The notes beneath the pieces were generated by a model. It worked only from the letters and a program-made list of their open reading frames with translations, was not told the DNA's origin and searched no databases. The position numbers and the translations under genes are program-made. A DNA stretch of 64,000 bases from Metallyticus violacea (taxonomy: Eukaryota > Arthropoda > Insecta > Mantodea > Metallyticidae): NCBI GenBank assembly GCA_030762175.1, contig CM060833.1:166895001-166959000 (forward strand). Direction: 5' to 3'. This document shows positions 8,096 through 63,132 of this stretch, one piece after another. Each line of letters starts with the position of its first letter. Position 1 is the stretch's first letter.

Positions 8096-8365
8096 GATGT
8101 TTACGTCCGTTTATAGTACTGAAGTACCACAGGCGATGGGCACTAATGATACATGAGATGAAATGATATATTGGGAAAGGATTTTTTTTAAGGAAGGAAG
8201 CGTTTCAGGCCTAAGTTTAGGGTACCTTCCCGGCATTTGCCATTTACAAGGATTGAGGAAAACCTGAAAAAAACCTCAGTAAGGGAGGGTGGTTCTGGCG
8301 GGATTCGAACCCCAGACCTTTCGCTCACGAGTCCGCGCCTTAACGACCTCGGTCACTCGTAGCGA
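8096..8365 (-). repeat. SINE family B, copy 1
   Basis: Minus-strand copy of the family with a class II (Leu/Ser-like) tRNA head. The B-box region, GGGGTTCGAATCCCGCCAGA in minus sense, is well kept. The body carries CCTCAGTCCTNATAAATGGC-like and CTAAACTTAGGCCTG-like blocks and ends in the GGACGTAAACA-type tail. The A-box side is partly decayed. Confidence 0.9.
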
Positions 8366-9921: not shown

Positions 9922-10197
9922 TGAGTAGTGTTTAACGCCCGTTTTTACTACTGAGGCACCACAGGCGGTGGACACTGATGATACATGAGATGAAATGATA
10001 AATTGGGAAAGGATATTTTTTTTTTAAGGAAGGAAACGTTCCAGGCCTAAGTTTAGGTACCTCCCCGGCATTTGCCAGTTATGAAGACTGAGGAAAACCT
10101 GGGAAAAAAAACCCAGGACGGTTCTGGCGGGATTCGAACCGCAGACCTCCCGCTCACGAGTCCATGCCTTAACGACCTCGGCCAACCGTGGCGGTTA
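9922..10197 (-). repeat. SINE family B, copy 2, full length
   Basis: Minus-strand full-length copy. The tail GGGCGTTAAACACTACTC and an A/T run come first on the plus strand, and the head CCGCCACGGTTGGCCGAGGT ends it. The B box and the GGTCTGCGGTTCGAATCCC region are intact. A TIR element begins five bases after the head, at a TA. Confidence 0.93.
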
Positions 10198-15441: not shown

Positions 15442-16699
15442 CGAAAGTAGGTCAATAAGTTTCCGGTCTAGCCGATAAAGATTATCGCCCTCACAAACCC
15501 TTATCTCGTATCATATCTTATCTGTTAATTGCAGTTCCGCTCTGTTCAGTTCAGATATAGTTGCATGAAGAAGGCTGTGTGTAGAAGATTGTGACATGTT
15601 CAAAATGGAGTATCGAACTGTTATTAAGTTCTTCACAAAAGAAGGACTTACTCCAAATGAAATTAAACAGCGATTGGACGGTGTATATGGGGAAGCATCC
15701 ACCTCATATTCTACCGTAAAAGAATGGACCAAACTTTTTCAAATGGGTCGAGAAAGCATTGAAAACGAAGAGCGTGCAGGTCGGCCCTTGGAGGTGCTCA
15801 CTCCTGAAAACATCGCTCCTGTGGAAGGAGAAATTATGGAAGAACGGCGGCTCAAAGTTACAGAAATAGCAGCAAAGTTGAGCCTTTCTAAAACAACAGT
15901 CCTTCGAATTATTCATGAACATTTAAACATGAATAAGGCTAGTGCAAGATGGGTGCCTAGACTTCTTTCCTCAGTTCAAAAGCAGCAACGAGTCATCTGT
16001 TGACAGACATTTTTGGAGCTCTGCCGTGGTAACGAGAGTTTCTGCAAACCATTGTTACAGCAGATGAAACTATGATCCTGTACTATGATCCCTTGTTCAA
16101 AAGAGAATCAATGGATTGGCGTAAACCTGGAGAAGCACCGCCTCTAAAGGCCAAGGCCATTCTGTCAACCAAGAAGATCATAGCCATAATCTTTTGACAC
16201 TGTTAAGCAATACTCTTCATTGACTTCAAGGAGAGGAACACCATATTAAATGGGGAGTACTATGCTGGTCTAGTGCACAGACTACGTGCTTCCATCAAAG
16301 AGAAAAGGCGAGGAAAGCTGAGTGATGGTGTGCACCTTCTTCATGACAACGCGCCTGTGCACACAGCTCTTGTTGCAAAGGAAGAAATGTGACTTTAAGG
16401 AGATCGACCATCTACTCTACAGCCCAGATCTAGCTCCCAGTGACTATTTTCTCTTCTCACAACTCAAGAAGAACCTTCAAGGAAGGGAATGAAAAGTGTG
16501 ACGAAGAAATGATGGATGCTGTTTATGCCCATTTTGCATACCAAATTTCTGATTATTTTGGAGGGAGGATTGAAATGTTAATTCAAAGATGTGAGAAGTG
16601 TATTGCAATAAAGGTAACTATATTGAAAAGTGAAATATAGTTTTTATGTTCATCATAGCTAGAAAATGGTTAGGCCGGAAAATTATGGACCTACCCTCG
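15442..16699 (+). mobile_element. mariner element, lineage M, copy 1
   Basis: The left end CGAAAGTAGGTCAATAAGTT and the right end, reversed CGAGGGTAGGTCCATAATTT, are inverted repeats of about 30 bp flanked by TA at 15440-15441 and 16700-16701. Length is about 1.26 kb, normal for mariner. The other copies of the same lineage lie at 29.0, 35.2, 41.9 and 57.0 kb. Confidence 0.95.
15596..16640 (+). pseudogene. mariner transposase pseudogene (lineage M, copy 1)
   Basis: The reading frame opens with MFKMEY at 15596 and runs 135 codons through the N-terminal HTH domain (WTKLFQMGRESIENEERAGR, then KTTVLRIIHEHL). It hits TGA where the sister copies read Cys. Later segments lie in shifted frames: ADETMILYYDP (first Asp; the usual Gly is Ala), then stops after KKIIAIIF, then LLHDNAPVHTA (second Asp), then a small deletion after VAKE. 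The catalytic signature spacing is the D,D34D type of the mariner family, normally about 345 residues acting in the nucleus as a cut-and-paste transposase. This copy is dead. Confidence 0.92.
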
Positions 16700-16701
16700 T
16701 A

Positions 16702-20536: not shown

Positions 20537-20760
20537 TAGTGGACACTGATGATACATGAGATGAAATGATGAATTGGGAAAGGATTTTTTTTTTTGAGGA
20601 AGGAAGCGTTCCAGGTTTAAGTTTAGGGTACCTCCCCGGCATGTGCCATTTATGAGGACTGAGGAAAACCCGGAAAAACCCTCAATCAGGGAGGACAGTC
20701 CTGGTGGGATTTGAACCCCAGACCTCCCGCTTACAAGTACGTGCCACCCGTGGCGGTCAT
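20537..20760 (-). repeat. SINE family B, copy 4
   Basis: Minus-strand copy whose terminal tail block is missing. The head, ending on the plus strand in GCCACCCGTGGCGGTCA, has lost the segment holding GAGGTCGTTAAGGCGCG. Confidence 0.88.
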
Positions 20761-22145: not shown

Positions 22146-22425
22146 GGCCGCCACGGTTGGCCGAGATCGTCAAGGTGCGGACTCGTGAGCGGGAGGTCTG
22201 GGGTTCGAATCCCGCCAGGACCGCCCTCCCAGACTGAGGTTTGTTCCAGGTTTTCCTCAGTCCTCATAAATGGCAAATGCCAGGGAGGTACCCTTAACTT
22301 AGGCCTGGAACGTTTCCTTCCTTAAAAAATCCTTTCCCAATTTATCATTTCATCTCATGTATCATCAATGTCCACCGCCTGTGGTGCCCCAGTAGTAAAA
22401 CGGACGTTAAACACCATTAAAAAAC
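22146..22425 (+). repeat. SINE family B, copy 5, full length
   Basis: Plus-strand full-length copy starting GGCCGCCACGGTTGGCCGAG. The B box GGGGTTCGAATCCCGCCAGG is intact and the tail CGGACGTTAAACACC ends it. One of the best preserved copies and a good reference for the family. Confidence 0.95.
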
Positions 22426-23269: not shown

Positions 23270-23543
23270 TAATGGTGTTTAACGCCCGTTTCTACTACTG
23301 AAGCACCACAGGCGGTGAACACTGAAGATACATGAGGTAAAATGATAAATTGGGAAAGGATTCTTTTAAGAAAGGAATTGTTCCAGGTCTAAGTTTAGGG
23401 CACCTCCCCGGCATTTGTCATTTATGAGGAGTGAGGAAAACCTGGAAAAAACCTCAGTCAGGGAGGACGCTCCTGGCGAGATTCGAACCCCAGATCTACC
23501 GCTCACGAGTACGCGCCTTAACGACCTCGACCACCCTGGGCGA
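23270..23543 (-). repeat. SINE family B, copy 6, full length
   Basis: Minus-strand copy from tail (plus-strand GGTGTTTAACGCCCGTTTCT) to head (ACGACCTCGACCACCCTGGG), moderately diverged, with the B box kept as GGGGTTCGAATCTCGCC. Confidence 0.93.
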
Positions 23544-28996: not shown

Positions 28997-30264
28997 CAAG
29001 GGTAGGCCATAAGTTTCCGGCCTCCCCAATAAGGATTATCGCCTTCACAAAATCCTCTCTGGTGTCATACCTTATCTGTTGAATAAATAACTGCAGCTGT
29101 AATTTCCGCTCCGCTGTGTTCAATTGTTAAGATATAGTTGCATAAAGAAGGCTGTGTGTAGAAGATTGTGACATGTTCAAAATGTAGTATCGACTTGTTA
29201 TTAAGTTCTTCACAAAAGCAGGACTTATTACAAATGAAACTAAACAGCGATTGGACGGTGTATATGGGGAAGCATCCTCCTCATATTCTACCGTAAAAGA
29301 ATGAGCCGAGAAAGCATTGAAGACGAAGAGCGTGCAGGTCGGTCCTTGGAGGTGCTCACTTCTGAAAACATCGCTCGCTTTTGTGGAAGGAGACATTATG
29401 AAAAACAAGCGGCTCAAAGTTACAGAAATAACAGCACGGTTGGGCCTTTCTAAAACAACAGTTCTTCGAATTATTCATCAACATTTAAACATGAATAAGG
29501 TTAGTGCAAGATGGGTGCCTAGACTTCTTTCCTAAGTCCAAAACCAACAACGAGTCATCTGTGTCAGGCATTTTTGGAGCTCCGCCGTGCAAACGAGAGA
29601 GAGAGAAGTTTTGCAAACCATTGTTACAGCAGATGATCCTCTACTATGAACCATCCCTTGTCCAAAAGAGAATAAATGGAGTGGCGTAAACCTGGCGATG
29701 CACTGCCTCTAAAGGCCAACGTCACTCAGTCAACCAAGAAGATCATGGCCACAATCTTTTGGGACTGTGAAGGAATACTCCTCATTGACTTCAAGGAGAG
29801 GAACACCACAGTAAATGGGGAGTAATATACCGGCCTACTGAACAGACTACGTACTTCCATCAAAGAGAAAAGACGAGGAAAGCTGAGTGGTGGTGTGCGC
29901 CTTCTTCATGACAACGCGTCTATGCACACAACTCTTGTTGCAAAGGAAGCTGTAAAGAAATGTGACTTCAAGGAGATCGAACATCCGCCCTACAGCCCAG
30001 ATCTAGCTCCCAGTGACTATACCTCTTCTCAGTCCTCAAGATGGACTTTCGAGGAAGGAAATTTAAGTGTGACGAAGGTGTGATGAATGGTGTATATGCC
30101 CATTTTGCAGAAAAAACTGTCTATTTGGGGAGGGGGGGGATTAAAATGTTAATTCATGGATGTGAGAAGTGTATTGCAATAAAGAGTAACTATATTAAAA
30201 AGTAGTTATTGTCTTTATCATATCTAGAAAATGGTTAGGCCGGAAACTTATGGACCTACTTTCG
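28997..30264 (+). mobile_element. mariner element, lineage M, copy 2
   Basis: The left end CAAGGGTAGGCCATAAGTTT follows TA at 28995-28996; the right end, reversed CGAAAGTAGGTCCATAAGTT, closes at 30264. The right target TA is mutated to TT. Body and ends match the other lineage-M copies. It has landed inside an older minus-strand mariner. Confidence 0.93.
29175..30210 (+). pseudogene. mariner transposase pseudogene (lineage M, copy 2)
   Basis: The start equivalent to MFKMEY is followed at once by a stop (ATGTAG). A deletion removes the segment equivalent to WAKLFQMG. KTTVLRIIHQHLNMNKVSAR is intact near 29450; the first-Asp block is damaged (TADDPLL); FWDCEGILLIDFKERNT and LLHDNASMHTTLVAKEAV remain, and YSPDLAPSDY survives near 29990. 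Dead copy, more decayed than the one at 57 kb. Confidence 0.9.
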
Positions 30265-30266
30265 TT

Positions 30267-31268: not shown

Positions 31269-31829
31269 CTGCTGGAAGAAGAAAAAACAGTTGCAAGTTT
31301 AATGTTTTTGCACAGCATCGATTCTATTATGCAATATGGAGGAATCGGTAGGTAAATTAAATGCTACAAATTTGCTATATGACTTTTGGGTTTAAAACAA
31401 ATATATTATGAACTTTTTAAACTAAATCACATGAGATGTTCATGTTGTTTTGGAAAATAAGATAGGATTAGGTTTTATTTTCTTTGAAGTTTTAAAAGTT
31501 TATTATTTTTAGTGTTTAATCTATTAAAACTTATGTTAATATGCTGTTAAGTTTGTATTATTTTGTTATGATAATAAGAGGTGAATTGTTTTTAACAATA
31601 TTTTTATAAATTTTCTGTTTGAGAGGAAGGTTAGCTTTATCTATTTTAATTTCTATAGTTCGTATGCTTTTATTAGTTCTTTTGTTTTGGTATTCTTATA
31701 CTTTTCATAGTATGTAGTGAAACAATTAGAAACATCATCCGATCAGGAACTGTGGTCGTACGTCTAGCAGCTAATTTAATTACATGGCATGTACCATTAG
31801 TTAATACAAGAAAAGCATGAACATTTGTA
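31269..31829. other. AT-rich DNA, possible upstream extension of mitochondrial insert
   Basis: Strongly AT-rich. The last 50 bases (from about 31775) may be scrambled cytochrome b, but alignment by eye is not convincing before 31830. Confidence 0.35.
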
Positions 31830-32100
31830 ACATTAAATCGATTCTTCACCCTCCACTTTCTATTACCCTTAATTATCGCGGCAGTAATACTAATCCATTT
31901 ACTTTTCCTCCACCAAACACGATCTAATAATCCATTAGGACTATATAGAAATATTGACAAAATTACTTTCCATCCATACTTTACATTTAAAGACATTTTT
32001 GGATTTATTATTATAATCATAATTATATCTTCTCTGTCTTTATAAGAACCTTATTTATTAAGAGATCCAGATAATTTTACCCCAGCAAACCCTGTCGTCC
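31830..32100 (+). pseudogene. cob/cytb (NUMT): Nuclear copy of mitochondrial cytochrome b (NUMT)
   Basis: Read with the invertebrate mitochondrial code, the plus strand gives about 90 continuous residues of the C-terminal half of cytochrome b: [51 protein letters not shown] and, after one stop, EPYLLSDPDNFTPANP. AGA codons fall where Ser is expected in insect cytochrome b, which shows the organellar code. In the mitochondrion the protein is the core haem subunit of complex III; here it is an inert fragment starting and ending abruptly in nuclear repeats. The single TAA sits at a site usually Lys or Asn, consistent with one substitution after transfer. No other mitochondrial gene was recognised next to it. 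Confidence 0.93.
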
Positions 32101-32792: not shown

Positions 32793-33048
32793 ACCGCCAA
32801 GGGTGGTGCGGACTCGTGAGCGGGAGTCTGTGGTTCGAATCCCGCCAGGACCGTTCTCCCTGACTGAGGTTTTTTACAGGTTTTCCTCAGTCCTCATAAA
32901 TGGCAAATGCCGGGGAGGTGCCCTAAACTTAGGTCTGGAACGTTTCCTTCCTTAAAAAAATCCTTTCCCAAATATCATTTCACTTCATGTATATTCAGTG
33001 TTCACCGCCTGTGGCGCCTCAGTAGCAAAAACGGGCATTAAACACTTT

Positions 33049-35237: not shown

Positions 35238-36509
35238 GCGTGCTAGGTCCATAAGTTACCGGCCTAACCATTTTCTAGGTATGATAACGACAAACATTAT
35301 ATTTCACTTTTCAATATAGTTACCCTTTATTGCAATACACTTCTCACATCTTTGAATTAACATTTCAATCCCTCCCCCCAAATAGTCAAAAGCATTGTCT
35401 GAAAAATGGGCATAAACAGCATTCGTCACTTCGTCACACTCAAATTTTCTAATTTATGAGTTTTGAAAAGAGAAAAAAGGAAGAGGAAAAATAGTCACTG
35501 GGCTGTAGGGCAGATGGTCGATCTCCTTGAAGCCACATTTCTTCACAGCTTCCTTAACAACAAGAGCTGTGTACACAGGCGCGTTGTCGTGAAGAAGGCG
35601 CACACCACCACTCAGCTTTCCTCGCCTTTTCTCTTTGATGGAAGCACGTAGTCTGTGCAGTAGGCCAGCATAGTACTCCCCATTTACTGTGGTGTTCCTC
35701 TCCTTGAAGTCAATGAAGAGTATTCCTTCACAGTCCCAAAAGATTGTGGCCAAGATCTTCTTGGTTGACTGAGTGACCTGAGCCTTTAGAGGCGGTCTTC
35801 GCCAGGTTTACGCCACTGCACTGATTCTCTTTTGGACAAGGGATCACAGTAGAGGATCATAGTTTCATCTCCTGTATCAATGGTTTGCAAAACTTTTCTC
35901 TCGTTGCCACGGCAGAGCTCCAAAAATGCCTGACAACAGATGACTCGTTGCTGCTTTTGGACTGAGAAAAGAAGTATATGTACCCATCTTGCAATAACCT
36001 TATTCATGTTTAAATGTTCATCAATAATTCGAAGGACTGTTGTTTTAGAAAGGATCAAACTTGCTGCTATTTCTGTAACTTTGAGCCCGGTCTTCCATAA
36101 TTTCTCCTTCCACATGTGCGATGTTTTCAGGAGTGAGCATCTCCAAGGGCCGACCTGCACGCTCTTCGTTTTCCATGCTTTCTCGACCCATTCGAAAAAG
36201 TTTGGCCCATTCTTTTGCGGTAGAATACGAGGAGGATACTTCCCCATATACACCGTCCAATCGCTGTTTAATTTCACTTGGAATAAGTGCTTCTTTTGTG
36301 AAGAACTTAATAACAGATTGATACTCCATTTTGAACATGTCACAATCTTCTACACATAGCCTTCTTTATGCAACTATATCTGAACAACTGAACAGTGGTA
36401 GTTACAGCTGAAATTATTTACTTAATAGATAAGGTTTGACACCAGATAAAGATTTTGTGAAGGTGATAATCCTTATCAGTGAGGACGGAAACTTATGGAC
36501 CAACTGTCG
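35238..36509 (-). mobile_element. mariner element, lineage M, copy 3
   Basis: The left end (TAGGTCCATAAGTTACCGGC from 35244) and the right end CCAACTGTCG are the TIRs; TA flanks lie at 35236-35237 and 36510-36511. Length is about 1.27 kb, minus orientation. Surrounding sequence is unrelated to that around the other copies. Confidence 0.93.
35380..36338 (-). pseudogene. mariner transposase pseudogene (lineage M, copy 3)
   Basis: Minus-strand frame opens MFKMEYQSVIKFFTKEAL at 36338 and reads 97 codons into the HTH region, then a frameshift near 36100. KTTVLRIIDEHLNMNKVIAR, TGDETMILYCDPLSKRE (first Asp) and LLHDNAPVYTALVVKEAV (second Asp) remain. A small deletion near 35505 removes PDLAPS, so the third catalytic Asp is lost, which alone would inactivate it. 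Confidence 0.92.
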
Positions 36510-37039: not shown

Positions 37040-37215
37040 GGCGACATGAGTGGCCGAGATCACTAAAGCAAGGACTCTTGTAAGGGGTTCGATTTCCGCC
37101 CCGACCGAGTTTTTTCAAAGTTTTCTTAAGTCCGCTTTCCTCATCAATGCCACATGCAGGTTAAGTATCCTAAACTGAGATGTGGTACGCTTCCTTCCCA
37201 AAAATTTCCCCATCA
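37040..37215 (+). repeat. SINE family B, copy 13, strongly diverged
   Basis: The head GGCGACATGAGTGGCCGAGA is recognisable, the B box is decayed to GGGGTTCGATTTCCGCC, and the body shows TCCTCATCAATGCCACATGC and CTAAACTGAGATGTGGTACG. Far more diverged than other copies, so either the oldest or a separate subfamily. The tail is absent. Confidence 0.75.
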
Positions 37216-38923: not shown

Positions 38924-39208
38924 CGGTCCTGGTGGTGTAGTGGAAACCACACTTGCGTTCTAAACCCAAGATTGCGGGTTCGATCCCGGCCAGGGCCGAT
39001 GGATGTTTTCGGGCGTAAAAATCCTAAGCATGGCTTCCTTCGGAAGGGAAGTAAAGCCATGGGTCCCGTGTCGTACATTTACGGCACGAAAAAGAACCTC
39101 AAGCGTGAAAGAAGAGGCCTCTGAGCAAAATTTGTCGGCCGTTTCACGCCCTGAATTGAATGGGACGCTGATGATCTGAGATGTTAAAGAGCGTCCGTAA
39201 ATAAACCA
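38924..39208 (+). repeat. SINE family A, copy 7, full length (best preserved)
   Basis: Head GTCCTGGTGGTGTAGTGGAA, B box GCGGGTTCGATCCCGGCCAG, complete body and tail GTTAAAGAGCGTCCGTAAAT. The acceptor-stem halves GTCCTGG and CCAGGGC nearly pair. This copy is a suitable family reference. Confidence 0.96.
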
Positions 39209-44272: not shown

Positions 44273-44958
44273 TAAAATAAAAATTGTTTGGAAATTTACA
44301 CTAGAATGCTCACATCTGTGTATTAGTATCTCTTCACTAGGTCTTGAACTTTTGCAACATTTTTAATATTTTAATATCAATTCTTTCGAAAGGCGCTTAT
44401 CGACCTAGTTTTTGTATAAGCCCACAATCTCCTGGATTAAAATGGGCAACGATTAAAAGGTGTTTGATTGCAAGCTTCATTTTCAGTTTTTCATTCAAAC
44501 ACCTGATACAGACATCAAGGGGAAGTCAGATATCGGAATATCGGCTAGTGGAAGGAAAACGGAGGAAAAAATCAAAATAATAATGAAAAAGCCCAGAGAA
44601 AAATGGAGTAATGGTGTACGATATATTATGATTGTTAAAGATAGATGTAAAATTTACTTTTGGTTGAGGAAAAAGCATTATAAAATAAAAAACTTAATAT
44701 GGAAAATAGTTTATTTAATGCGTTTCCAAATAATTGGTGGTAATCTTCATTTTAGCTTTGGATATTATAACAATGCTCGAATCAGGCAAACACAAATTAA
44801 AATTATGTTAAGCCTTTGCACTACATTAGTACGCGGTAGTGAATGAGTGGTGTGTATCGGTAAGAGTTCTGCCGGCAGCGGTTGATACAGAAATTATCGA
44901 TATGTACTGGCGTGTGTCAAAGATACATGTCTATGTTCACTTGTTCATTTGAACTTAC
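44273..44958. other. Pax3/7 intron 3' of the RED exon, proximal part
   Basis: In gene orientation this follows the RED exon. It starts with a strong donor GTAAGT. Two overlapping plus-strand ORFs (44344-44846) have no recognisable domain and are antisense to the gene. Confidence 0.6.
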
Positions 44959-45065
44959 CATCGCAGAGCTTCTTGTCATCCTCTCCGTCACGCCCCCGGA
45001 GTAGACGGGAGATCGCACTCACGGAGGGCGCGTTGCTGCGGTCGCATAGCCCGTCCTTTATCAGC
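44959..45065 (-). CDS. Pax3/7: Pax3/7 exon: C-terminal (RED) half of the paired domain
   Basis: A 107-base exon that follows the 54 kb exon on the minus strand. Its acceptor is TTTCTAATGTTTCAG and its donor GATG|GTAAGT. The first base completes an Arg codon begun in the upstream exon (AG|G); then come 35 codons, starting LIKDGLCDRSNAPSVSAISR and continuing LLRGRDGEDDKKLCD, and one base of the next codon (phase 1). LIK-G-CD and SVSAISRLLRG are the RED subdomain's first helices and its recognition helix, which contacts DNA in the 3' half of Pax sites. SVSAISRLLRG is typical of insect paired/gooseberry. No methionine begins the exon, so ORF finding misses it. The base composition is GC-rich against AT-rich flanks. 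The next exon (octapeptide and homeodomain in Pax3/7) was not found. Confidence 0.95.
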
Positions 45066-45850
45066 CTGAAACATTAGAAAGTTACTCCTTTAGAGCTAAG
45101 AAAACGAACATTTCTGCTTGAACTGACCAGCCTTGAAGTGCGGTATGTTGCATTTAAATATAGGAAAAATAAACTTACTTTGAACAATGAATTTTATTTA
45201 CTAAAATTTAAAATTTACTGCAGTAGGGAGGGGAGGAGACAGATTTGTCTTAAAAGATATCGAACTTTGCCTATTTATTTATTATTACATTAAAATATAC
45301 CCTCTAAATCGTTTGTGCCTTCAAAATAATTTAAGTCCACAATTGCTATGCAGTTTTCAAAATTCAGTTTACCGAAAATGTATGAAATCATAATAATATC
45401 ATTTTAAAAAAAGTGAAAAAATAACATTTTCCGTCAAAAAATTTTTTTCTCCAATTTTTCTTAAAATTACTTTGAGCCTTACAGAAAAGTTTCAATTGCC
45501 CATGTCGTAAAGAGCAACTGTTTGTCATTTTAAAATGTCTGCACTCTTTAAATGTGTTTTAACATTCAGGCTTAACTTGAAGTTCATGTTTTCTCCGCTT
45601 TAGCTTTTCCTGCACTCTAAACACATCTCTAACTGCAATATTTTATTTACATACATGGAACTTTTTTTTAGAAATTCTGTACACTTTGCTGCTTGTGTTA
45701 TTCTCAGAAGCTAAAAATATATTTTTTTAAAAAAATGTATAGTACAGTCGATAACAAATTCCAGAACTTTTGTATTTTATTTCACTTTTTAAAAATTAAC
45801 CAACATAATTAAATATCCTTGCTAACTTTTTCATAAATTTTAAAACGAAT

Positions 45851-46102
45851 TTATTTTGTTTTTTTAAGGACGCTCTGTGAAATCTCTGTACATTAGTGTT
45901 CCATTCATATCAGTATGTGAAACGGACAATAAACTTTCATCACTTGCCGTTTCTTTCAGGTTTGGGATTTTTACGTGACGTAAATTTACGACACAGGACC
46001 AGCGTTTTACTATCCTTACGTAGGAAGTCATACTTAGGGTTTTACGTCCTAAAAATTCATCGACTTGAATCAGCGACCTTGAGTCTATGAAGTAAGTATA
46101 TA
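45851..46102 (-). repeat. SINE family A, copy 8, strongly diverged
   Basis: Minus orientation. The tail AGCGTCCTTAAAAA, GAATGGAAC and GACTTCCTACG blocks are recognisable but altered throughout. The head is barely visible. Oldest family A copy in the window. Confidence 0.8.
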
Positions 46103-48873
46103 AACAATAAATGGAACACATTTATAAGGTTATTGTAGGAAAATTTTCAACTTTTATGAGAGGAAATAGGCTTTTAGCAATAATTTTGAATTACCAACAA
46201 AAACTGAATTAATGTTTTAAAACGTAGTGAAATGTTACCATTTAATCCGAAAGTTTATACAGACAATACTTAAAGCCTGAACAACACGTGTGCAAAATAT
46301 GAAATCTCTAGGTTTAACTATTCAAAAGTTTCAAGTTTCATTTCGTTGTCATTTGAACAATTAATTATAAGGGAAAGGAAGGAAAACACCCTAAAATGTT
46401 GGCTTTGTAACATAGTAAAGCCTCTTGAAAAATTGAATTTTAAGGAGTTTATGGCTTTTCAGAAGTTTTGATAACTATTTAACTACTATTGCACCCCATA
46501 GCGTGAATATAGACAGAAGATAGCTAGGGCAAGCAGTTTTTACCCTTTCTTCCTTGTTTTTGTAATCTTGCTATGAATTTCTTTTGCTGCTATAAAAAAA
46601 AAAAAATTAGAGAATCTATCTTGGTTTGTTTTTCGGCCCTACTTTATCACTGTAAAACTCTGAATTTTGCACCTGACTAAAAATGTATTTGTATGCCTTA
46701 ATGACAAAATTGAAACCCGTATTGCGATATCATCTAAAGGTCCGGAAACACTATTTTATGTTTATATGTGCCAAACGGTCGATAGCAAATGATGTGTATC
46801 CAACCAAGAACTTTTCTTGAGTGAGAAATGCATTATGGAAAAATACGAACGGCAAATCTGTGGGGATTTTAAAGTAATAGGATTATTTCTAGGAAAGCAG
46901 CATGATTTCATCAATATTTGTTGCTTTAAGTTTCTAGCTACTAAGTAGATTTTTTTAATTTTTTAATTTTAATTCTGCAATACTTACATCCTGATATCTT
47001 GGTTCTACATCAGGACGTAATACTCCAGATTTCATTTATTTATTCCTCTTGTATCTTTCAATACAATTTAAATTACAATTAAATTTTACAGATTTTAAAA
47101 TCTACACTACTAATACTATGACTAAACAAAATTAAAACTTCAAAAAACAAAACCGGTACTGGAATCCAGCACTACGGCTATTTACTATGACTTATAATAA
47201 CATCTACAGTTGCAACTGGTACCCAGTAGCAATGATTACATTTAAACTTTATTAATTTACAATTATTATCCAATTTACTCTATGCGTCTTCATTTCTGCT
47301 AACGCTCGGTATCCGGGCTGCTCCGCACTGGAATTCCTGGCAACAGAACCTGGACATCAGTGGAGTTGCTGCCGGTCTCAAGCTACTAAGTAGATAGAAA
47401 CTTAATAAATTTGGAGGAGCCAGTAAGATATGTTTGGTCTAGGGTCAAATAAACTATTTGGTAAAAAGATAAACTTTTGTGCCACCGTTTCATATAATTT
47501 AGGGATAATGAGACATTTGTGAGAGCCTTAGAGGCTTGGAGTATTCGAAAGAACAATTCCCGTGAATAAATTAAGCCAAACAGAAGAAAGTTTTTATTAG
47601 CTCCCAAATTCAAGATAGTATTTTGAAGCTCTGTCAATGGACAATGAGAAACAAGAATAGTTACTGTGTGTCTGGGGAATGTAAGAGTTGAGAACTACAA
47701 GGTTGCAATGATATACAAACTCCTAGGTGTAATTTGACATTGAAATTACATTTCCTACAGTCCTATTTGTACTACTTTCCTCCTAATCTGGGTGTACTGG
47801 GGAATGAAGTCTGGACACCAGATACGGCTTCCTATCACGCTGTCAGCTGTTTACTTTACTGGTGTACCTGCAAATTCTTACAGAAAAATACAGACATCAC
47901 TTGAAAGGAGCTCTGACTTGATATAAACAACACGATGTGTATAACACACGACGTAGTTAACTGCATGTGTTCGGTGTCTGAACTACCATCCTTACTGATG
48001 AGCATGAACGTTTTAATCACATTGAAAAACCATACTGAGGGAGATTGTCACCAAGCATGTTAGTCATTATTGGCAACTACTTGAAGATGTTTCCGGTGTA
48101 CTTAACAAACGGAAATATAGAATAAAAAATTAATGTGTGTGAAATAAAAAACTGTTTCAAATTTTTATATAAGTAAAGTAGTTATGACTATAGGCAATTC
48201 TATTACTTTTGGATTCTTCGCATATATTTTTGTTAGGCTGAACTTCATATTTAGTTAAGGAAATGTTTGAATTATGTATCTTTTGAATGTTTTTATGACA
48301 AATTTAAAACTTAATTTCCTGGGAAAACGATATACAATACGGAATTTTAGTTACAGATTTAAATTTAGCACATGCTAATAATCCTATTCAAGCGCGAAAC
48401 AAAAAGTTATAATTTGTTCAATGAGTAATGTCTACAAAGACGGAATAATTCTTTTGCTAACGAAATATCAGCGTGCAAGTTAGAGTATATGACGTCAGAG
48501 GAAGGGGGTTACATTTCGTGGCTGCAATGCATAGACATGCTGTTGTTTACAACGGAACGCTAAACAGCTTGATTGATGATATTTCGTTGATCATCTCTTA
48601 ATTCTAGTTTTCTAACCCTTCTTTTTATCATTACAATTTGCTCTCCTTCAATCGTTAGTAATTTAATTCTCTGTACTATTGTGTTGCTAATTATATTGGA
48701 ACTGAGGTTCCCCCACTCTATTTCTAAATGCATGACATCTCACGGCTCAGTTCTTTAGTTAGGTTTCTGTTCTATGATAACACTTCTTTGTCTTAGATGA
48801 TACAACTGATGTGCATTCTTTCTTGAAATTAAAGCGATTCCTTTGCCCTTGATGATCAGGGCGGCTGTGTTTT

Positions 48874-49125
48874 TACTAGTGTTTAATGCCCGTTTTTTAC
48901 TACTGCGGCACCACAGGCGGTGACACTGATAATACATGAAATGAAATGATTGATATATTGGGAAAGGATTATTTTAGGGAAGGAAATGTCCCAGCTCCCC
49001 GACATTTGCCATTTATGAGGACTGAGGAAAACCTGAACAAAACCTCAGTCAGGGAGGATGGTCCTGTTGGAACTCGAACCCACCTCACGAGTCCGCGCCT
49101 TAACGACCTCGGCCACAGGTGGCGA
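48874..49125 (-). repeat. SINE family B, copy 8
   Basis: Minus-strand copy, tail (TTTAATGCCCGTTTTTTACT on plus) to head. About 20 bases around the B box (GGAGGTCTGGG) are deleted. Confidence 0.9.
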
Positions 49126-49846
49126 TAAGAGCTGCTGTGATGTCTATAAACAAATGAACATCAGTGGGTTTGTATACGCAGCCGCCAGTAGAGAAAGGTG
49201 AAACTCTAGAAAATCCCAGCATTGCATTTAATAGGTTAAATAATACTTAATTTACAGGAAATGTGCACTGCAACCCGAAAACCTCCTAGTGGAAAAAGAG
49301 AAAGCTGTTCAAGCCTTCTAATGACTTAAGAAGAACTAATTAAATGCAATAACACCAGAAATGCCTAAATCGTTTAGAGATTGAGTATCGCGCTCAAGAA
49401 ATTCCAGGGTTTCGTTTTCCCCTAGGCCCTTCTAGATAGCCTAAGGGTTATAACTCGATTGCATACGATCCAAGGGACATAGGTACCTAATTACGTACCA
49501 GGCACCTTCAAACACTTCTTCTATGTTATTAAGTTGGTGGTAATGATGTATTATTAGACCTCCTAAAGCCTGAAATACCAACTTTAAAGTCGATTGACAA
49601 TCTAGAGCGTTCCTCCTGTTGGAGTTAACGATTTAAAATGTCTTCATTTTCACCTTATTGTAATTCACAATTAACGACTGATGCATAATTGTCGGATTTA
49701 TTTCATATTTCTACAATTTTAAAAGAAAACTTTCATTCTCTCGTCATGAACTTTTAATATTTAAATTATATGTACGGAGAGAGAGAGGCAGTCCTAACGG
49801 AAATAAAATAAAACTCAATACAACAATTGACGACCTATATTTTTTT

Positions 49847-50060
49847 AATGGTGTTTAACCATGATGATACATGAGATGAAATAATATATCGGGAAAGGAT
49901 ATTTTTATTTTTTAAGGAAGGAGACGTTGCAGGCATAAGTTTAGGGTACCTCCCCGGCATTTGCCATTACTAGTGAGAAAAACTTCAGTCATGGAGGACG
50001 AACCCCAGACCTCCCGCTCACGAATCCGCGCTTTAAAGATCTCGGCCACCCGTGGCGGTG
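49847..50060 (-). repeat. SINE family B, copy 9, internally deleted
   Basis: The plus strand passes from GGTGTTTAACC directly to ATGATGATACATGAGATG, losing about 45 tail bases. A second deletion removes the CCTCCCTGACTGAGG-to-B-box region. The head ends in GCCACCCGTGGCGGT. Confidence 0.88.
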
Positions 50061-51534
50061 ACGACCTATATGCACTTCATGTTATTAACAGTACACTAGA
50101 AGCATATGAGATGACAATGTTTAGTCGAAAGGGGGGGGGGGGGTCTTGGTGTTTGGTTTAAGAAAGTCAAAATGACTTATAGGGAAAAATTGGAAACAGT
50201 ACGCTGTGCAGAGTGAAAACTCAGACAAACAAGATGAGAATTTACGTATATAACTATGGTATTTGCCCTAGAAACAGCTGTTTGGTGTTGGAAGGTGTGA
50301 GAAAAACTCTCTTGTGCCAAAACGTACTAATGTAGTTCAATTTTTACACTTTGCAGATATTTTCTAGATTACTTTTTGTTCAACGTTTGATTTGAATAAT
50401 CCACAATTCAAACATTCAAAAAATTGGGAGTAAATACATACCTATGATTTTTAAAAAGTGTAAAAATATGCGCGTGTTTATGTGCGCGCGCACTTTCGTA
50501 CTTTAATTTCACAGATATCCCGCTTTACAAGATTATACACTGACTGTCGTTTTACAGAGTCGATCATCCAAGCTATTTTTAGTGCCTTTGATCTTTAATT
50601 CCCTCTTATTTGTAGCTTCTAGCAATTCTTCGATCCAAGCCTGTTCTTCTTTACTAAATATAAATAAATTAATTAATATAAATATATAAATAGCCATCGT
50701 CCTTCCTCCATTCTCTTTATATATCCAAATTTGGTTCTCTATGTTCTAATTAAACATATTTACTTCAACATTTCATTGTTTTCTACTTCTTCAATTCTTA
50801 CCAGGTCAAGCCATGAAATTCTTTCGTTTTCCTGTTAAAATATCCATTTTCATTGCCAAATGCTTTTTTATTTTTATAAACTCCTATTGTACATCCATAA
50901 GCTATGAAATATTTTAATAAAATGTTCCATTATACATATGTGTGTATATAATATATAATTATGTAAAATGCATAGAGAGGTTAAATGAGATAAAGCATAT
51001 AGCATACGGTTAGGTAACACACAGTAAAACGTATTTCGATCCTAAATGTTCTTTTTCTGATAGATCTGCTTGTCCTTTTAAGTTCTTTTAACTACAGAAC
51101 GCTGTAGTTCTTTGTATTTTTACTAATTTGCGCAGTTTTTTTTTTGTCTATTTCAACTATTGTGGCTAGAAATATCATGTTCCCCCATATTGTGATCCTA
51201 CCGTATTGAATTTTGGTACTCTGTTCAATTTTATACCTGATCTTCTTTGTAATGTTTATATTTTCTTCGATATTCATATTATCTTTAGTTTTGCTATTAA
51301 TAACCAAATACTCAGTTTCTTATAATTCATTGTAAGCCTCCTTAATTCGGTGTTTCTATAATAATTTAATCATAAATTGTAAATCAAAATGATGTTGGAC
51401 AGTTACTACATTGTCTTTTGCGAAGTGTAAATCAAACAAAAAAAATAATTAATCTCCACTCTTATTCTATGAATGTTCTTTCCATTTTTCCAAAATATGT
51501 TGAACATATACTCGTAACAAGTTTTTTTTTTTTT

Positions 51535-51783
51535 TAATAATATTTAACGCCCGTTTTTACTACTGAGGCACCACAGGCGGTGAACAGTGGTGATATATGA
51601 ATATATGAGTTTATATATTGGGAAAGGATTTTTTTAAGGAAGGAAACGTTCCAGGTCTAAGTTTAAGGGTACCTCCCCGGTATTTGCCATTTATGAGGAC
51701 TATGGGGAAACCTGGCGATATTCGAGCCCCGGACCTCACGCTCACGAGTCCGCGTCTTAACGACCTCGGCCACCCGTGGCGGT
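51535..51783 (-). repeat. SINE family B, copy 10
   Basis: Minus-strand near full-length copy with an intact tail (TTTAACGCCCGTTTTTACTA) and head (ACGACCTCGGCCACCCGTGG). The segment between body and B box is shortened. Confidence 0.92.
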
Positions 51784-52649
51784 ATGTAATAAAGTGAAAG
51801 GTTGGCTCTAAGGAAATAAGAAGTATTTTCCTATATAAATATATGCTTTATTGTTTTCATACATTTCTCTGTCAACAAGTGTAACTTTTTTATCATCTGG
51901 TTTAATACTAATAGGTTGTCAATGAAACACTTTCCTGCTCGAAAACAACTTGGCTCTCTACACGTTTTATCTTTTGTCCCCACTTCTAATTTGTTTTCAA
52001 TCATTATTTCTGTTCCGCTTTTTAAATATTCAAATGATGTGGTTAATATTAAAACATTTATATCATACAAAATAATACATAAATTAACAAACTTCCTTAC
52101 TATAATGTTTGTTTTGTATTTCTGTATCATGTTATTTACGTTCCTGATAACACACTTTCGGAACTTGAATGAGTCCTAAAGTTCTTTCCTCTGAGAGGAG
52201 AAAACTTTCCATGATATTACTAGAATTTCCGGGTATGAAATCGCATCAATATCCCCCCCCCCCTGAGGTGGCACAAGAACCAGTAGTTAAGAGAAGGGAG
52301 AAGTTTCTATTTATTGAATTGCACATTCCGGTCAGGAAATCACTTGATCTCACGATTATCTTTACTTTGTTTTAAAACAATTACTCATTACATTTACATG
52401 TCGAACAGAAAAGTTCAGTTTACTGCATTACCGTATACTAAAGTCACCAGAATTCATACAAAACTTTACTTGGCAATTTCAGCATATATGATCATAGTAT
52501 TGGGTCTCCAGTGAACTTCCCCATTTTTGTGACGCAGTCCAGATTACAAAACAAAATTGGGGAAATTTTTTTTCTTTTTAAGAGATTGCAGAAGTTTATC
52601 GTATTGAACTTAAAGCAAAATTGAACAAATGAACCAAAAAGTTTAATAC

Positions 52650-53545
52650 GAGGTATGATAAAAATAACGCAATATTCGTTTTTCTTAAAGAATCTTTATT
52701 TATTCATCAACATCAATTCTGTTCCCTTCAAAGTGCGGATATAATTCACTTGTACCAGCGCTTTTTCCAATCTTGGAAGCACTTCTGGAACTCACTTTAG
52801 GTATGCCCTTCTGCTCTTTCAGCGATTGTGTTTTTACCTTATCAATGGTGGCAAATCGTCTTTTTTTCAAAGTTTTCTTCAGCCTCGGGAATAGAAAGAA
52901 TCGCAAGGGATCATGTCCGGCGAGTATGGGAGCTGAGGCAACATTACGGTTTTGTTTTTTGCCAAAAAATCAGAACAAGCAGCGAGGTGGTAGCAATCTC
53001 TGAACAAACTTTGCTGCCACACGTTTCATGCCAAAACATCCGAAAAGTTGCTTGGCATCAACCGACATCATCAGCAACCTCTCTGATATGATTCGGCGAT
53101 TTTCCAGAATCATTTTCTTCACTTCTCCGACGTTGTCGCCGGTTATTGATGTGCTAGGATGTCCAGGACGGTGTTCATCTTCAACGTCTTCACGGCCCTC
53201 TTTGAAACGTCTGTACTACTCGTAAGCTCTTGTCTTGCTCATAGTAGATTCGCCAAAAGCCACAGTCAACATTTCCAATACTTAATTTGTTCCATTTTTC
53301 AAGCAAAATTTAATACAAATTCTTCGATCCAACTTTTTCGAAAGTAAAAAATCGCCGAGCACATCAAAACACGTCTAACCTTTTCGACTATCAACAATGA
53401 ACTAAACATTCAAAACAGCTGAAAAAGCCAACATTGGTCAGAAATATGTGTACCAACAAGCTAAAAAACGAAATTGAAAATCGGATTTACGAAGCTCCGA
53501 AATTAAAAAAAAAAAAAAATGCTGTTATTTTTTGATCACATCTCT
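52650..53545 (-). mobile_element. mariner element, fourth lineage, internally deleted (896 bp)
   Basis: The ends CGAGGTATGATAAAAATAAC and, reversed, AGAGATGTGATCAAAAAATA form inverted repeats of about 25 bp with TA at 52648-52649 and 53546-53547. Minus-strand frames encode the N terminus (KTRAYEWYRRFKEGREDVED near 53200, MILENRR near 53110, RVAAKFV near 53010). The sequence then jumps to LPQLPYSPDMIPCD near 52940 and the C-terminal FFLFPRLKKTLKKRRFATID. The central part with the first and second catalytic Asp is missing, so it is non-autonomous. It sits in the intron between the paired-domain exons. Confidence 0.85.
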
Positions 53546-54097
53546 TATGTTGACTCTTGCATGAAACATTAACTTTACAGTCCACTATGTTCAGTTATGA
53601 TCTCCTGTCATGTTGTAAATCATACTACACATTCTGTCTGACTTAATTTCATTATGTGTGCATTTTTTATCTGTTTACATTCAAGTTTATATAAATGAAC
53701 AGAAGAGTTCACAAAACTAAAACATTCTTTTGAACACGAGGGAAAGCATCACTCATCGCACTGTAAGAAGTGGGTAATAAATTAATTTTGTTCCGTTTCC
53801 AGGAGACTGGAGCCTCTCAGCTCAGTTAGTGATCGAAATTAGACATTGCTATGGAAGTAGATACAGCTTTGATCCGTAAATAAACACTATAGGAATTGCG
53901 GAGAGAGAGATATTTATCCGGTTATGGTTTGTCGGAAGATTTTTTTTTCAGCTCAAAGACAGGTAGGTTTCAACACTTTTAACTATCTCAGAGCTTATAT
54001 CATTATCTCCAACACCTAAGAAAAGGGTGTAAATTTAAATATTGAGTGCAACATGAATGTTCATTCTTACACTGTACTTCGGAAGGTTTTTACGAAC

Positions 54098-54401
54098 CTG
54101 TCACGTATCTCCCAGCTAAATATACCGGGATTTTCCTTTTTGTATTCCTCGATGCGAGTTTCGACTTCAGGGGTGGCCACCCGAGGCTTGGAGCCGCCGA
54201 TGACTCCGGGGCGTATGGAACCTGTCTCTTGGTAGCGATTCAGAATCTTGGAGACGCAGCCGTGAGACACCCGCAGCTGTCGCGATATGACGCACGGCCG
54301 AACCCCGGCAGCAGCCATCTCCACGATCTTCAGTCGGATGTGGTTGGGCAAGGGACGGCCGTTGATGAACACACCCCCTAGCTGGTTCACACGCCCCTGT
54401 C
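54098..54401 (-). CDS. Pax3/7: Pax3/7 exon: N-terminal (PAI) half and linker of the paired domain
   Basis: A 304-base exon preceded by the acceptor GTGTTGTGTTGCAG. It opens with two bases completing Gly, then [20 protein letters not shown], the start of every Pax3/7 paired domain. It continues [20 protein letters not shown] (the PAI recognition helix that reads the 5' half of the site), the linker [16 protein letters not shown] without the extra Gln seen in a vertebrate splice form, and FSWEIRDR, ending AG|GTTCGT. All 100 whole codons are open and no key residue is missing. The reading frame runs past the exon into FVKTFRSTV before a stop, which is intron. Joined in phase with 44959-45065 it gives an unbroken paired domain. 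Pax3/7 proteins are nuclear transcription factors for segmentation and neural fate in insects. Whether this is paired, gooseberry or gooseberry-neuro cannot be decided from this domain. The start-codon exon lies upstream and was not found in the window. Confidence 0.97.
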
Positions 54402-55328
54402 CTGCAACACAACACCCAGGTGAGTGTAAATGTCAACTGCACTCTCAGGTAAGCAGAAATACTTTTCTCTACTTACGGAAACTATAAATTAGACAGACAA
54501 CATACTTCACAGCTCTACATGTGCTCTTGCATAAAAACTAACCAACAAGAATAAAGGAGATGGCTGAAAATATAAAAACAAAATTCAGATATAATAAAAA
54601 TTAACCACATTGTTTTTTATTTATGTTATCGGGTTTGTTAATGTCCTGGCCGCTCTACTGGGTTTAGCACCTCGGCAGCTGGATATGCCACAGCGAACCT
54701 CGCATTATGAGCTCTCAGCTAGTCGCATAGCAAGCTCTAATTTTGCTATTATAAAGAGGGGTTCCTTGTACACAATTGAGTTTTCAGAACACCAACAGCG
54801 AGTGTTGTGAATATCCGTATTACCATTTTGGTGGAACCATGCCTCATCTATCTATGAGTCAATTAATTCTTCAGCAATTGACGAAAGCAACCACTGACAA
54901 TAACGCACACATGCTATGGGATCACCTTGTCGCAGACAATGCAAGGGTTGCTATAGATACATTTGTAACATTTCATTTTTAACATTTTTGTTGCTGTATG
55001 TGCAGAAGACACTGAGATCTCAATTTTTTGTGCTGATTTCGATAGTGATTTTGTCGGCGAAAGTTCAAAATTTGTACAAATCTCGTCTAATTTATCTTCT
55101 GTTGAAACTGTGCGTATTTAGGTAAGTTTCTTGCTTTGCATTGTAGTATCAAATTTATTCACAAGAACGTGAGAGGATGTAATTGCCCAGGAAACTTCTG
55201 AATGAATTCCTCAAGAACGCGATTAGCCGATTCATATTTAAAATAGCATTTATAAAATAAAAATACATTAATCTAAAGGCTTCGCGAACGAATGGTGACT
55301 GCTCGGAAGTTTAAGGTCAGGCATGAAT
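54402..55328 (-). other. Pax3/7 intron upstream of the PAI exon, proximal part
   Basis: Intron sequence on the gene strand. No exon with a plausible ...YPFQG|GT end was seen here or up to 64000, so this intron is probably longer than 9.6 kb. Short ORFs in it have no domain. Confidence 0.6.
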
Positions 55329-55534
55329 CGCCACGGATGGCCGAGGTCTTTAAGGCGCGGACTAGTCAGCGGATGGTTGAGGTTTTTTCTCAGTCCTCAT
55401 AAATGCAAATGCCGGGAAAGTACCCTAACCTTAGGCCTGGAATGTTTCCTTTCTTAAAAAAATCCTTTCCCAATATATCATTTCATCTCATTTATCATCA
55501 ATGGTGCTACAGTAGTAAAAATGGGCGTTAAACC
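55329..55534 (+). repeat. SINE family B, copy 11, internally deleted
   Basis: The head CGCCACGGATGGCCGAGGTC is followed by a jump from GCGGAT to GGTTGAGGTTTTTTC, losing the B box. Body and tail are intact. Confidence 0.9.
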
Positions 55535-55745: not shown

Positions 55746-56445
55746 GAGTGACAAAAAAGGTACACGCATTTCAAGCAAAGAAAAAACTGTGTTAACATGA
55801 CAAAACTGAATTCACATAAACAGTAAATAATGAATACAAATCATCTTAGAATTTCACAGTTACAACAGTTAACAACAGTTCCCCAAAATGCCCACTATCG
55901 GCGTCGATGCACTTCTGGTAAGTTGAACTACTGATTGAGCAACGTTTGCTAAAGTGTCCTCAGCGATTGCAACACATGCCGTTTCAGTTTCTTCCCGAAG
56001 TGCTGCCAGTGTATCGGGTTTCTACTGTATACGTTACCATGAGTCTCAAATTTGTCTCGAATGCGTGCAATTGTTACTCGCGTTGGCGGTTCTGTTTTGT
56101 ACACACGTCTCCATTGCCTTTGAACTTCAACAACATTCTCGGTTTTCCAATACCACTTCAAAATTTGTTTCCGCTGTTCAAACGATAATCTTGGTTCCAT
56201 TTTGTTGTAGCAACGCTAGCATAACGTAATGTAAGTCACGTCTATTTACTGAACATCATACATAATCTTCACTTCATTTGTTCAGTGTTTACTTCCCTGT
56301 CACGTAGCAACGCTATTATAATGTATGCGAGTCACATCTGTTTACAGAACATCATACTACACATTACTGTTGTTTTTCGGTCCAACTTTGAAATATATTA
56401 AGTATATATCTACTGTGAAAGTGTGTATACATTTTTTGGCACTCT
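55746..56445 (-). mobile_element. DUF4817-type Tc1/mariner transposon, internally deleted, N-terminal HTH kept
   Basis: The ends GAGTGACAAAAAAGGTACAC and, reversed, GAGTGCCAAAAAATGTATAC match the 42.5 kb copy. The minus-strand frame opens MEPRLSFEQRKQILKWYWKT at 56200 and continues VVEVQRQWRRVYKTEPPTRV and IARIRDKFETHGNV, the complete DUF4817 HTH that binds the element's ends. It then breaks, with no catalytic Asp block. The reverse of the 42.5 kb copy, which keeps only the catalytic C terminus. Confidence 0.88.
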
Positions 56446-56950: not shown

Positions 56951-58176
56951 CGGGGGTAGATCCATAAGTGTGTCATACCTTATCTGTTAAATAAATAATT
57001 ACAGTTGTAACTTTCACTGTGTTCAGTTGTTCAGATATAGCTGCATAAAGAAGGCTATGTGCAGAATATCCTCATATGTTCAAAATGGAGTATCCAGCTG
57101 TTATTAAGTTCTTCACAAAAGAAGGACTTACTCCAAATGAAGTTAAACAGCGATTGGACGGTGTATATGGAGAAGCATCCCCCTCATATTCTACCGTAAA
57201 AGAATGGGCCAAAATTTTTCAAATGGGTCGAGAAAGCACTGAAGACGAAGAGCGTGCAGGGCGGCCCTTGGAGGTGCTCACTCCTGAAAACATCGTTCTT
57301 GTGGAAGGAGAAATTATGGAAGACCGCCGGCTCAAATTTGCAGAAATAACAAAAAGGTTGGGCCTTTCTAAAACGAAAGTGAATTATTGAATTATTTCCG
57401 AACATTTAAACATGAATAAGGTTAGTGCAAGATGGGTGCCTAGACTTCTTTCTTCAGTCCAAAAGCAGCAACCAGTCATTTTTGGAGCTCTGCCGTGGCA
57501 ACGAGAGAGAAGTTCTGCAAACCATTGTTACAGGAGATGAAACTATGATCCTCTACTATGATCCCTTGTCCAAAAGAGAAGCAATGGAGTGGCGTAAACC
57601 TGGCGAAGCACCGCCTCTAAAGGTCAAGGTCACTCAGTCAACCAAGAAGATCATGATCACAATCTTTTGGGACTGTAAAGGAATACTCTTCATCGACTTC
57701 AAGGAGAAGAACACCACAGTAAATGGGGAGTACTATGCTGGTCTACTGCACAGACTACGTGCTTCCCTCAAGGAAAAAAGGCGAGGAAAGCTGAGTGATT
57801 GTATGCGCCTTCTTCACGATAACGCGCCTGTGCACACAGCTCTTGTTGCAAAGGAAGCTGTGAAGCAATGTCACTTCAAAGAGATCGACCATTCACCCTA
57901 CAGTCCAGATCTAGCTCTCAGTGACTATTTCCTCTTCACAAAACTCAAAAAAGTCCTTCGAGGAAGGAAATTTAAGTGTGACGAAAAAGTGATGGATGCT
58001 GTTTACGCCCATTTTGCAGACAAGACTTCTGACTATTGGGGGGTTGAAATGTTAATTCAAAGATGTGAGAAATGTATTGCAACATAGCGTAGCTATATTG
58101 AAAAGAGAAATATAGTTTTTTTGTTTTTGTCATACCTAGAAAACAGTTAGGCCAGAAACTTATGGGCCTGCCCTCG
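56951..58176 (+). mobile_element. mariner element, lineage M, copy 5 (best preserved)
   Basis: TA flanks lie at 56949-56950 and 58177-58178. The right end, reversed CGAGGGCAGGCCCATAAGTT, is intact. The left TIR CGGGGGTAGATCCATAAG is followed by a deletion of about 45 bases that removes its inner half. The transposase is nearly open. The copy most likely to be young. Confidence 0.94.
57076..58087 (+). pseudogene. mariner transposase, nearly intact (lineage M, copy 5)
   Basis: The N-terminal frame 57076-57390 (104 codons, MFKMEYPAVIKFFTKEGL, WAKIFQMGRESTEDEERAGR) holds the HTH domain. It ends at a stop caused by a small lesion near 57375-57395, where sister copies read KTTVLRIIHEHL. The C-terminal part runs unbroken to 58087: TGDETMILYYDPLSKREAME (first Asp), FWDCKGILFIDFKEKNT, LLHDNAPVHTALVAKEAV (second Asp) and HSPYSPDLALSDYFLF (third Asp, 34 residues on). 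About 14 residues (ICCQA and neighbours) are missing near 57475. All three catalytic aspartates survive, so it is disabled only by the central lesions. Total length is close to the usual 345 residues. Confidence 0.93.
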
Positions 58177-58194
58177 TAAATAAAGGGGAAGAAA

Positions 58195-62858: not shown

Positions 62859-63132
62859 AACGCCAAGAGTGGTCGAGGTCGTTAAGGCGCGATCTCGTGA
62901 GCGGAAAGTCTGGGGCTCAAATCCCGCCAGGAACATCCTCCCTGACTGAGGATTTTCCATATTTTCCTGAGTTCTCATAAACGGCAAATGCCGAGGAGGT
63001 ACCCTAAACTTAGGCCTGGAACGTTTCCTTCATTAAAAAAAAATCCTTTTCCAATATATCATTTCATTTCATGTGTCACCAGTGTTCACCGCCTGTGGGG
63101 CCTCAGTAGTAAAAACGGGTTTTGAACACTTA
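62859..63132 (+). repeat. SINE family B, copy 12, full length
   Basis: Head ACGCCAAGAGTGGTCGAGGT, B box TGGGGCTCAAATCCCGCCAG (slightly decayed), complete body and tail GTAAAAACGGGTTTTGAACA, followed by poly-A. Confidence 0.93.

Follow-up and report, generated by a model that had tools for sequence, protein, structure and literature searches.

Two exons on the minus strand of the window, the whole 64,000-nucleotide stretch of Metallyticus violacea DNA analysed here, are very probably consecutive coding exons of the host paired (prd) gene, a Pax3/7 transcription-factor gene. Their coordinates are listed in Table 1, together with those of the splice borders and of the repeated elements that surround them.

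Table 1. Positions of the exon pair, its splice borders and other elements in the window.
Feature	Position	Strand	Remarks
Acceptor AG (TTGCAG|G) of the preceding intron	54402..54403	-	preceding intron is phase 1
Exon encoding residues 1-100 of the paired domain plus the first two bases of codon 101	54098..54401	-	PAI subdomain and part of RED
Donor GT (AG|GTTCGT) of the 304-base exon	54096..54097	-	
Intron between the two exons	45066..54097	-	9,032 bases, phase 2
Acceptor AG (TTTCAG|G) of the 107-base exon	45066..45067	-	
Exon beginning with the third base of codon 101 and running through the paired-domain end into the linker	44959..45065	-	linker start GEDDKKLCD G
Donor GT (G|GTAAGT) after the 107-base exon	44957..44958	-	toward the linker/homeodomain exon
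Mariner-type transposase copies	15549-16700, 29126-30265, 57029-58177	+	Transposase_1
Mariner-type transposase copy	35457-36394	-	Transposase_1
DUF4817 helix-turn-helix ORF	55952-56215	-	E 2.1e-17
Second short repeat family, one strand	8182-8273, 10017-10108, 20588-20679, 23360-23451, 48951-49042, 49906-49997, 51629-51720		
Second short repeat family, opposite strand	22242-22330, 32872-32960, 37119-37207, 55374-55462, 62953-63041		

The exons, their phase and borders, and the intact bipartite paired domain that they encode can be read directly from the DNA. When the 304 and 107 bases are joined by script, one of the three frames is open and gives 136 residues without a stop, comprising the full paired domain and the start of the linker, with the junction splitting Arg101 as AG|G; the window contains no N. 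An AG or GT is read at every border, and the initial annotation is borne out in its description of splice sites at all four ends, an in-phase join at an arginine codon, a 9-kb intron, and a complete Pax3/7 paired domain with both subdomains. The first donor (GTTCGT) is off the usual consensus; of the GT/AG pairs tried within 60 bases around both borders, 11 keep the frame open, and the junction given here ranks top with a score of 198 vs. 179 for the next. The joined product matches positions 2–125 of the 125 in the Pfam PAX profile (PF00292; E 3.5e-73). Extending the first exon into the intron gives a match to positions 2–105 (E 4.2e-63), and the second exon alone matches positions 103–125 (E 1.7e-4), with 21.9 bits against a cut-off of 22. 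Because the matches of the split exons stop at 105 and start at 103, it is the join that supplies the missing C-terminal end of the domain, and because its score falls just below the cut-off the 107-base exon is easily missed by itself. The latter point had also been made previously, and it holds for ORF finders and for the exon scored alone, but not for the blattodean orthologs, which are annotated as whole proteins. Chance is not a serious explanation of the exon pair, and the two exons are predicted to be spliced together.

The joined product belongs to Pax3/7 (group III). The best of its solved relatives is Drosophila PRD (1pdn; 247.7 bits, E 2.4e-73), which outscores the Pax2/5/8-type structures (Pax5, 191.7 bits; Pax8, 189.7 bits) and Pax6 (179.5 bits). 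A full-length protein search with a length filter matched 6,786 of 7,012 candidates, and the best 120 of the 6,786 were considered; named relatives among the matches listed are gooseberry, gooseberry-neuro, paired, and Pax3 or Pax7, with the one exception of a 'pax1/9' (P0133). Comparison of the joined translation with Pax proteins, as suggested in the initial annotation, finds insect Pax3/7 proteins at 95–98% identity over all 136 residues among the matches listed (98% in both Zootermopsis and Cryptotermes, 96% in Periplaneta and 95% in Blattella), and the Blattella protein carries the name 'Segmentation protein paired'. Judged by these identities, the host is very probably related to termites and cockroaches. 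Three proteins (P0122–P0124) outscore the termite rows yet are less identical (88, 71 and 81%, respectively), and they were left out of the ranking of closest relatives.

Within Pax3/7 the gene is most likely paired, over gooseberry or gooseberry-neuro, a better yet unproven reading that rests on the SVSAI motif, the octapeptide-less kin and the likeness of the linker. The RED subdomain encoded in the window reads SVSAI. Among the matches listed there are 115 new proteins, 83 of which are SVSAI without the octapeptide and 17 SVSSI with it; for the other 15, no homeodomain was found in six (three of them SVSAI), the motif is unreadable in seven, and two are SVSSI without an exact octapeptide match. 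An octapeptide is present in none of the SVSAI proteins with a readable linker among the matches listed. SVSAI and SVSSI are correlates of prd and gsb found in this analysis and not a published definition; the published mark is the octapeptide, absent from Prd and carried by Gsb and Gsb-n, as described in passages of both PMC4609124 and PMC7528073. A tree of the paired domain alone has short branches and does not separate prd from gsb. With the homeodomain of the relatives added, the window falls within a supported set (97/95) that contains all 23 SVSAI rows together with three myriapod or tick rows, whereas the seven insect gsb-class rows all lie outside it. By AU tests, placement of the window with prd-class rows (p 0.777) and placement with gsb-class rows (p 0.611) are both acceptable; the tree of paired and gooseberry classes envisaged in the initial annotation yields a place in the SVSAI set, but does not settle prd vs. 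gsb.

The position of the intron within the paired domain may distinguish the two classes as well. We give an even chance to the proposal that this intron lies in codon 101 (phase 2) in prd genes of blattodean-, hemipteran- and collembolan-like origin, and after codon 104 (phase 0) in the gsb class, two sites that are 10 nt apart and leave the protein length unchanged. The pattern comes from a third protein search, in which the best 120 of 2,081 matches included 104 new sequences, many of which are taken as ORFs of unspliced DNA because their tails leave the family abruptly. Among the matches listed, 20 of these 104 leave the paired domain right after Arg101, like the window read unspliced, and 78 leave it after Lys104; five other ORFs and one lacking the motif were left out of the count. 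Half of the Arg101 breakers (10/20) have no tail beyond this residue, as would be expected of either a donor AG|GTAA or the end of the record. The nearest class, a label that rests on about 100 residues, is prd for 17 of the Arg101 breakers and gsb for one, with two tied, and for the Lys104 breakers it is gsb in 29 cases and prd in 26, with 23 tied, given a reference set of 93 prd and only 26 gsb. Among ORFs that agree with a blattodean protein in at least 99 of 101 residues, six break after Arg101 (five nearer prd and one tied) and nine after Lys104, all nearer gsb, with margins of one or two residues. The partial Daktulosphaira model P0312 has a prd-type N-terminus and ends EIRD, one residue short of the Arg101 site, and five of the Lys104-breaking ORFs carry a joined N-terminal exon, none with the MTVT start within the printed stretch.

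Inserts in protein sequences also mark the Lys104 site. Eight proteins (P0049, P0063, P0073, P0074, P0082, P0098, P0101 and P0121) are interrupted by an insert precisely at the boundary of Lys104 and Asp/Glu105, beyond which the domain continues; all eight are SVSSI and gsb-type, including P0082 from the mollusc Plakobranchus, and P0098, a Tenebrio model, differs in the first residue. Not counted here are P0015 (Pollicipes), whose insert is ambiguous, P0115 and P0117, with an insert elsewhere, and several that are three residues shorter. No similar insert occurs at Arg101 among the script-readable proteins, in which stretches of up to about 50 residues are detectable, and both borders of the prd-site intron are seen in the window only. 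A beetle-like SVSAI sequence, P0006, continues across both sites and departs from the family only after the linker glycine. Unless P0006 is a partly spliced transcript, the intron may be missing from some prd genes.

If the two sites do sort with the two classes, the change at about the time of the prd/gsb duplication would have been either a joint shift of both borders by 10 nt or the loss of one intron and the gain of another. We note that the first ten bases of the intron in the window (54097–54088, minus strand), read in frame, encode Phe-Val-Lys where relatives read Leu-Ile/Val-Lys, and that the 107-base exon (45065–45056, minus strand) has an AG exactly at the acceptor position of the gsb-type proteins. 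The Phe-Val-Lys read-on could hint at a doubled stretch as the route of the shift, although we give this little weight. Intron position would then provide a one-glance mark of prd or gsb where sequence alone fails, by which the two could be sorted in incomplete genomes, and the paralogs would exemplify an intron shift of 10 nt. The breakpoints in the paired domain are described as conserved in a published account of how prd and gsb genes are organised in Pancrustacea, in passages that give no nucleotide position (PMC7528073); the 10-nt offset may already be shown in Supplementary Fig. 3 of the same paper. The literature searched yielded no paper on where introns lie in the paired domain of gooseberry genes.

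The earlier statement that the 64 kb contain no host exons besides these two is upheld within the reach of a Pfam scan of ORFs and of comparisons with ortholog peptides. The scan took in the 120 stop-to-stop ORFs of at least 72 amino acids and, at E ≤ 0.001, found one PAX match and one cytochrome b fragment besides transposase, helix-turn-helix and DUF4817 matches. Peptides from the N-terminus, the homeodomain and the C-terminus of Prd in the termite relatives do not outscore shuffled controls in gapless six-frame comparisons with the whole window. Neither a first exon nor a homeodomain exon was found in the window by pattern search or by tblastn, for which 120 relatives were used at first and 235 later. 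Small unconserved host exons could still be present elsewhere in the window. A weak tblastn match at about 61973–61827 (E 0.12–0.99), obtained with many related queries, was taken as chance, and its longer form crosses stops. Rfam at gathering thresholds gave no match in the window, and no relatives were confirmed among GTDB contigs and IMG/VR (152 and 11 pattern stretches, respectively).

Several other elements are recognizable in the window. The mariner-type element is represented by at least four diverged copies (best E 6e-21), which are 60–94% alike over ungapped repeat blocks, and the DUF4817 ORF is probably another transposon remnant. A 74-residue ORF at 31821–32042 (plus strand) is probably a nuclear copy of a mitochondrial fragment, as two cytochrome b models of Pfam recognise it at E 1.5e-14 and 7.4e-7. 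ARAGORN predicts a pyrrolysine tRNA at 38924–38999 (plus strand), which is more likely a tRNA-derived SINE because it is located inside a short repeat found elsewhere (inverted pairs I17 and I22). The second short repeat family consists of D3 and D8, which are linked to each other through inverted pairs (I9 and I12, for example), and three of its copies are inside the 9-kb intron.

Two other explanations of the exon pair have to be weighed against a working paired gene. The database labels of the nearest termite and Periplaneta proteins (those of Zootermopsis, Cryptotermes and Periplaneta) are gooseberry or gooseberry-neuro, and since the AU test does not reject a gsb-class placement the gene could be such a member of Pax3/7. 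We consider this improbable, as the octapeptide-bearing proteins of Cryptotermes (P0229), Periplaneta (P0231) and Coptotermes (P0235) are only 90–91% identical to the window, compared to 95–98% for the octapeptide-less proteins, and the window has neither of the gooseberry correlates: it has SVSAI instead of SVSSI, and its intron in codon 101 is at the break site of the prd-like ORFs, away from the site after Lys104 in known gsb-type proteins. The automatic names gooseberry and gooseberry-neuro for this class of termite and cockroach proteins are probably wrong.

Slightly less probable still is that the exons are a duplicated or decaying partial copy of paired. In its favour, just two exons are found in 64 kb, transposon remnants surround them, and the first donor departs from consensus; however, the 411 bases contain no stop, frameshift or lost splice site, the encoded residues differ from those of the termite relatives by only about 2%, and retention of the intron in place argues against a retrocopy.

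For a working paired gene, the flanking introns are longer than 9.6 kb and 44.9 kb, barring missed small exons, because the termite-ortholog peptides score like shuffled ones. The first exon would lie that far upstream and the homeodomain exon that far downstream, both outside the window, and the gene would span more than 64 kb. In this family, DNA is bound jointly by the PAI and RED subdomains and the homeodomain, and prd has a role in segmentation, as summarised in passages of PMC4609124. By analogy, the protein would bind DNA through its two paired subdomains and a homeodomain, and would probably play a role in embryonic segmentation like the paired of other insects.

In all, the pair is very probably an unremarkable stretch of an insect paired gene, close copies of which are already annotated in termites and cockroaches, and it adds one more paired ortholog of the blattodean type; the exact place of the intron between the two exons is its one mildly unusual feature. 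Cryptotermes secundus P0126 and Zootermopsis nevadensis P0125, with the database names gooseberry and gooseberry-neuro-like, have the same SVSAI, lack the octapeptide, and are 98% identical over 136 residues when compared as proteins. Their linkers start GDDDKKLSDG, similar to GEDDKKLCDG in the window, and no octapeptide stands between LSDGK and the homeodomain; the window has VET where these have VEQ or VEH. A second Cryptotermes model (P0127) has additional linker sequence. Drosophila melanogaster Prd (1pdn) is matched across the whole domain with 87% identity over 93% of the query, 13% of the aligned residues being different. The gooseberry-class proteins Periplaneta P0231 and Coptotermes P0235 share the same paired-domain class and 91% identity with the window, but differ in having SVSSI and the octapeptide, and in the gsb-type proteins the paired-domain intron lies 10 nt further along than that of the window and is in phase 0.
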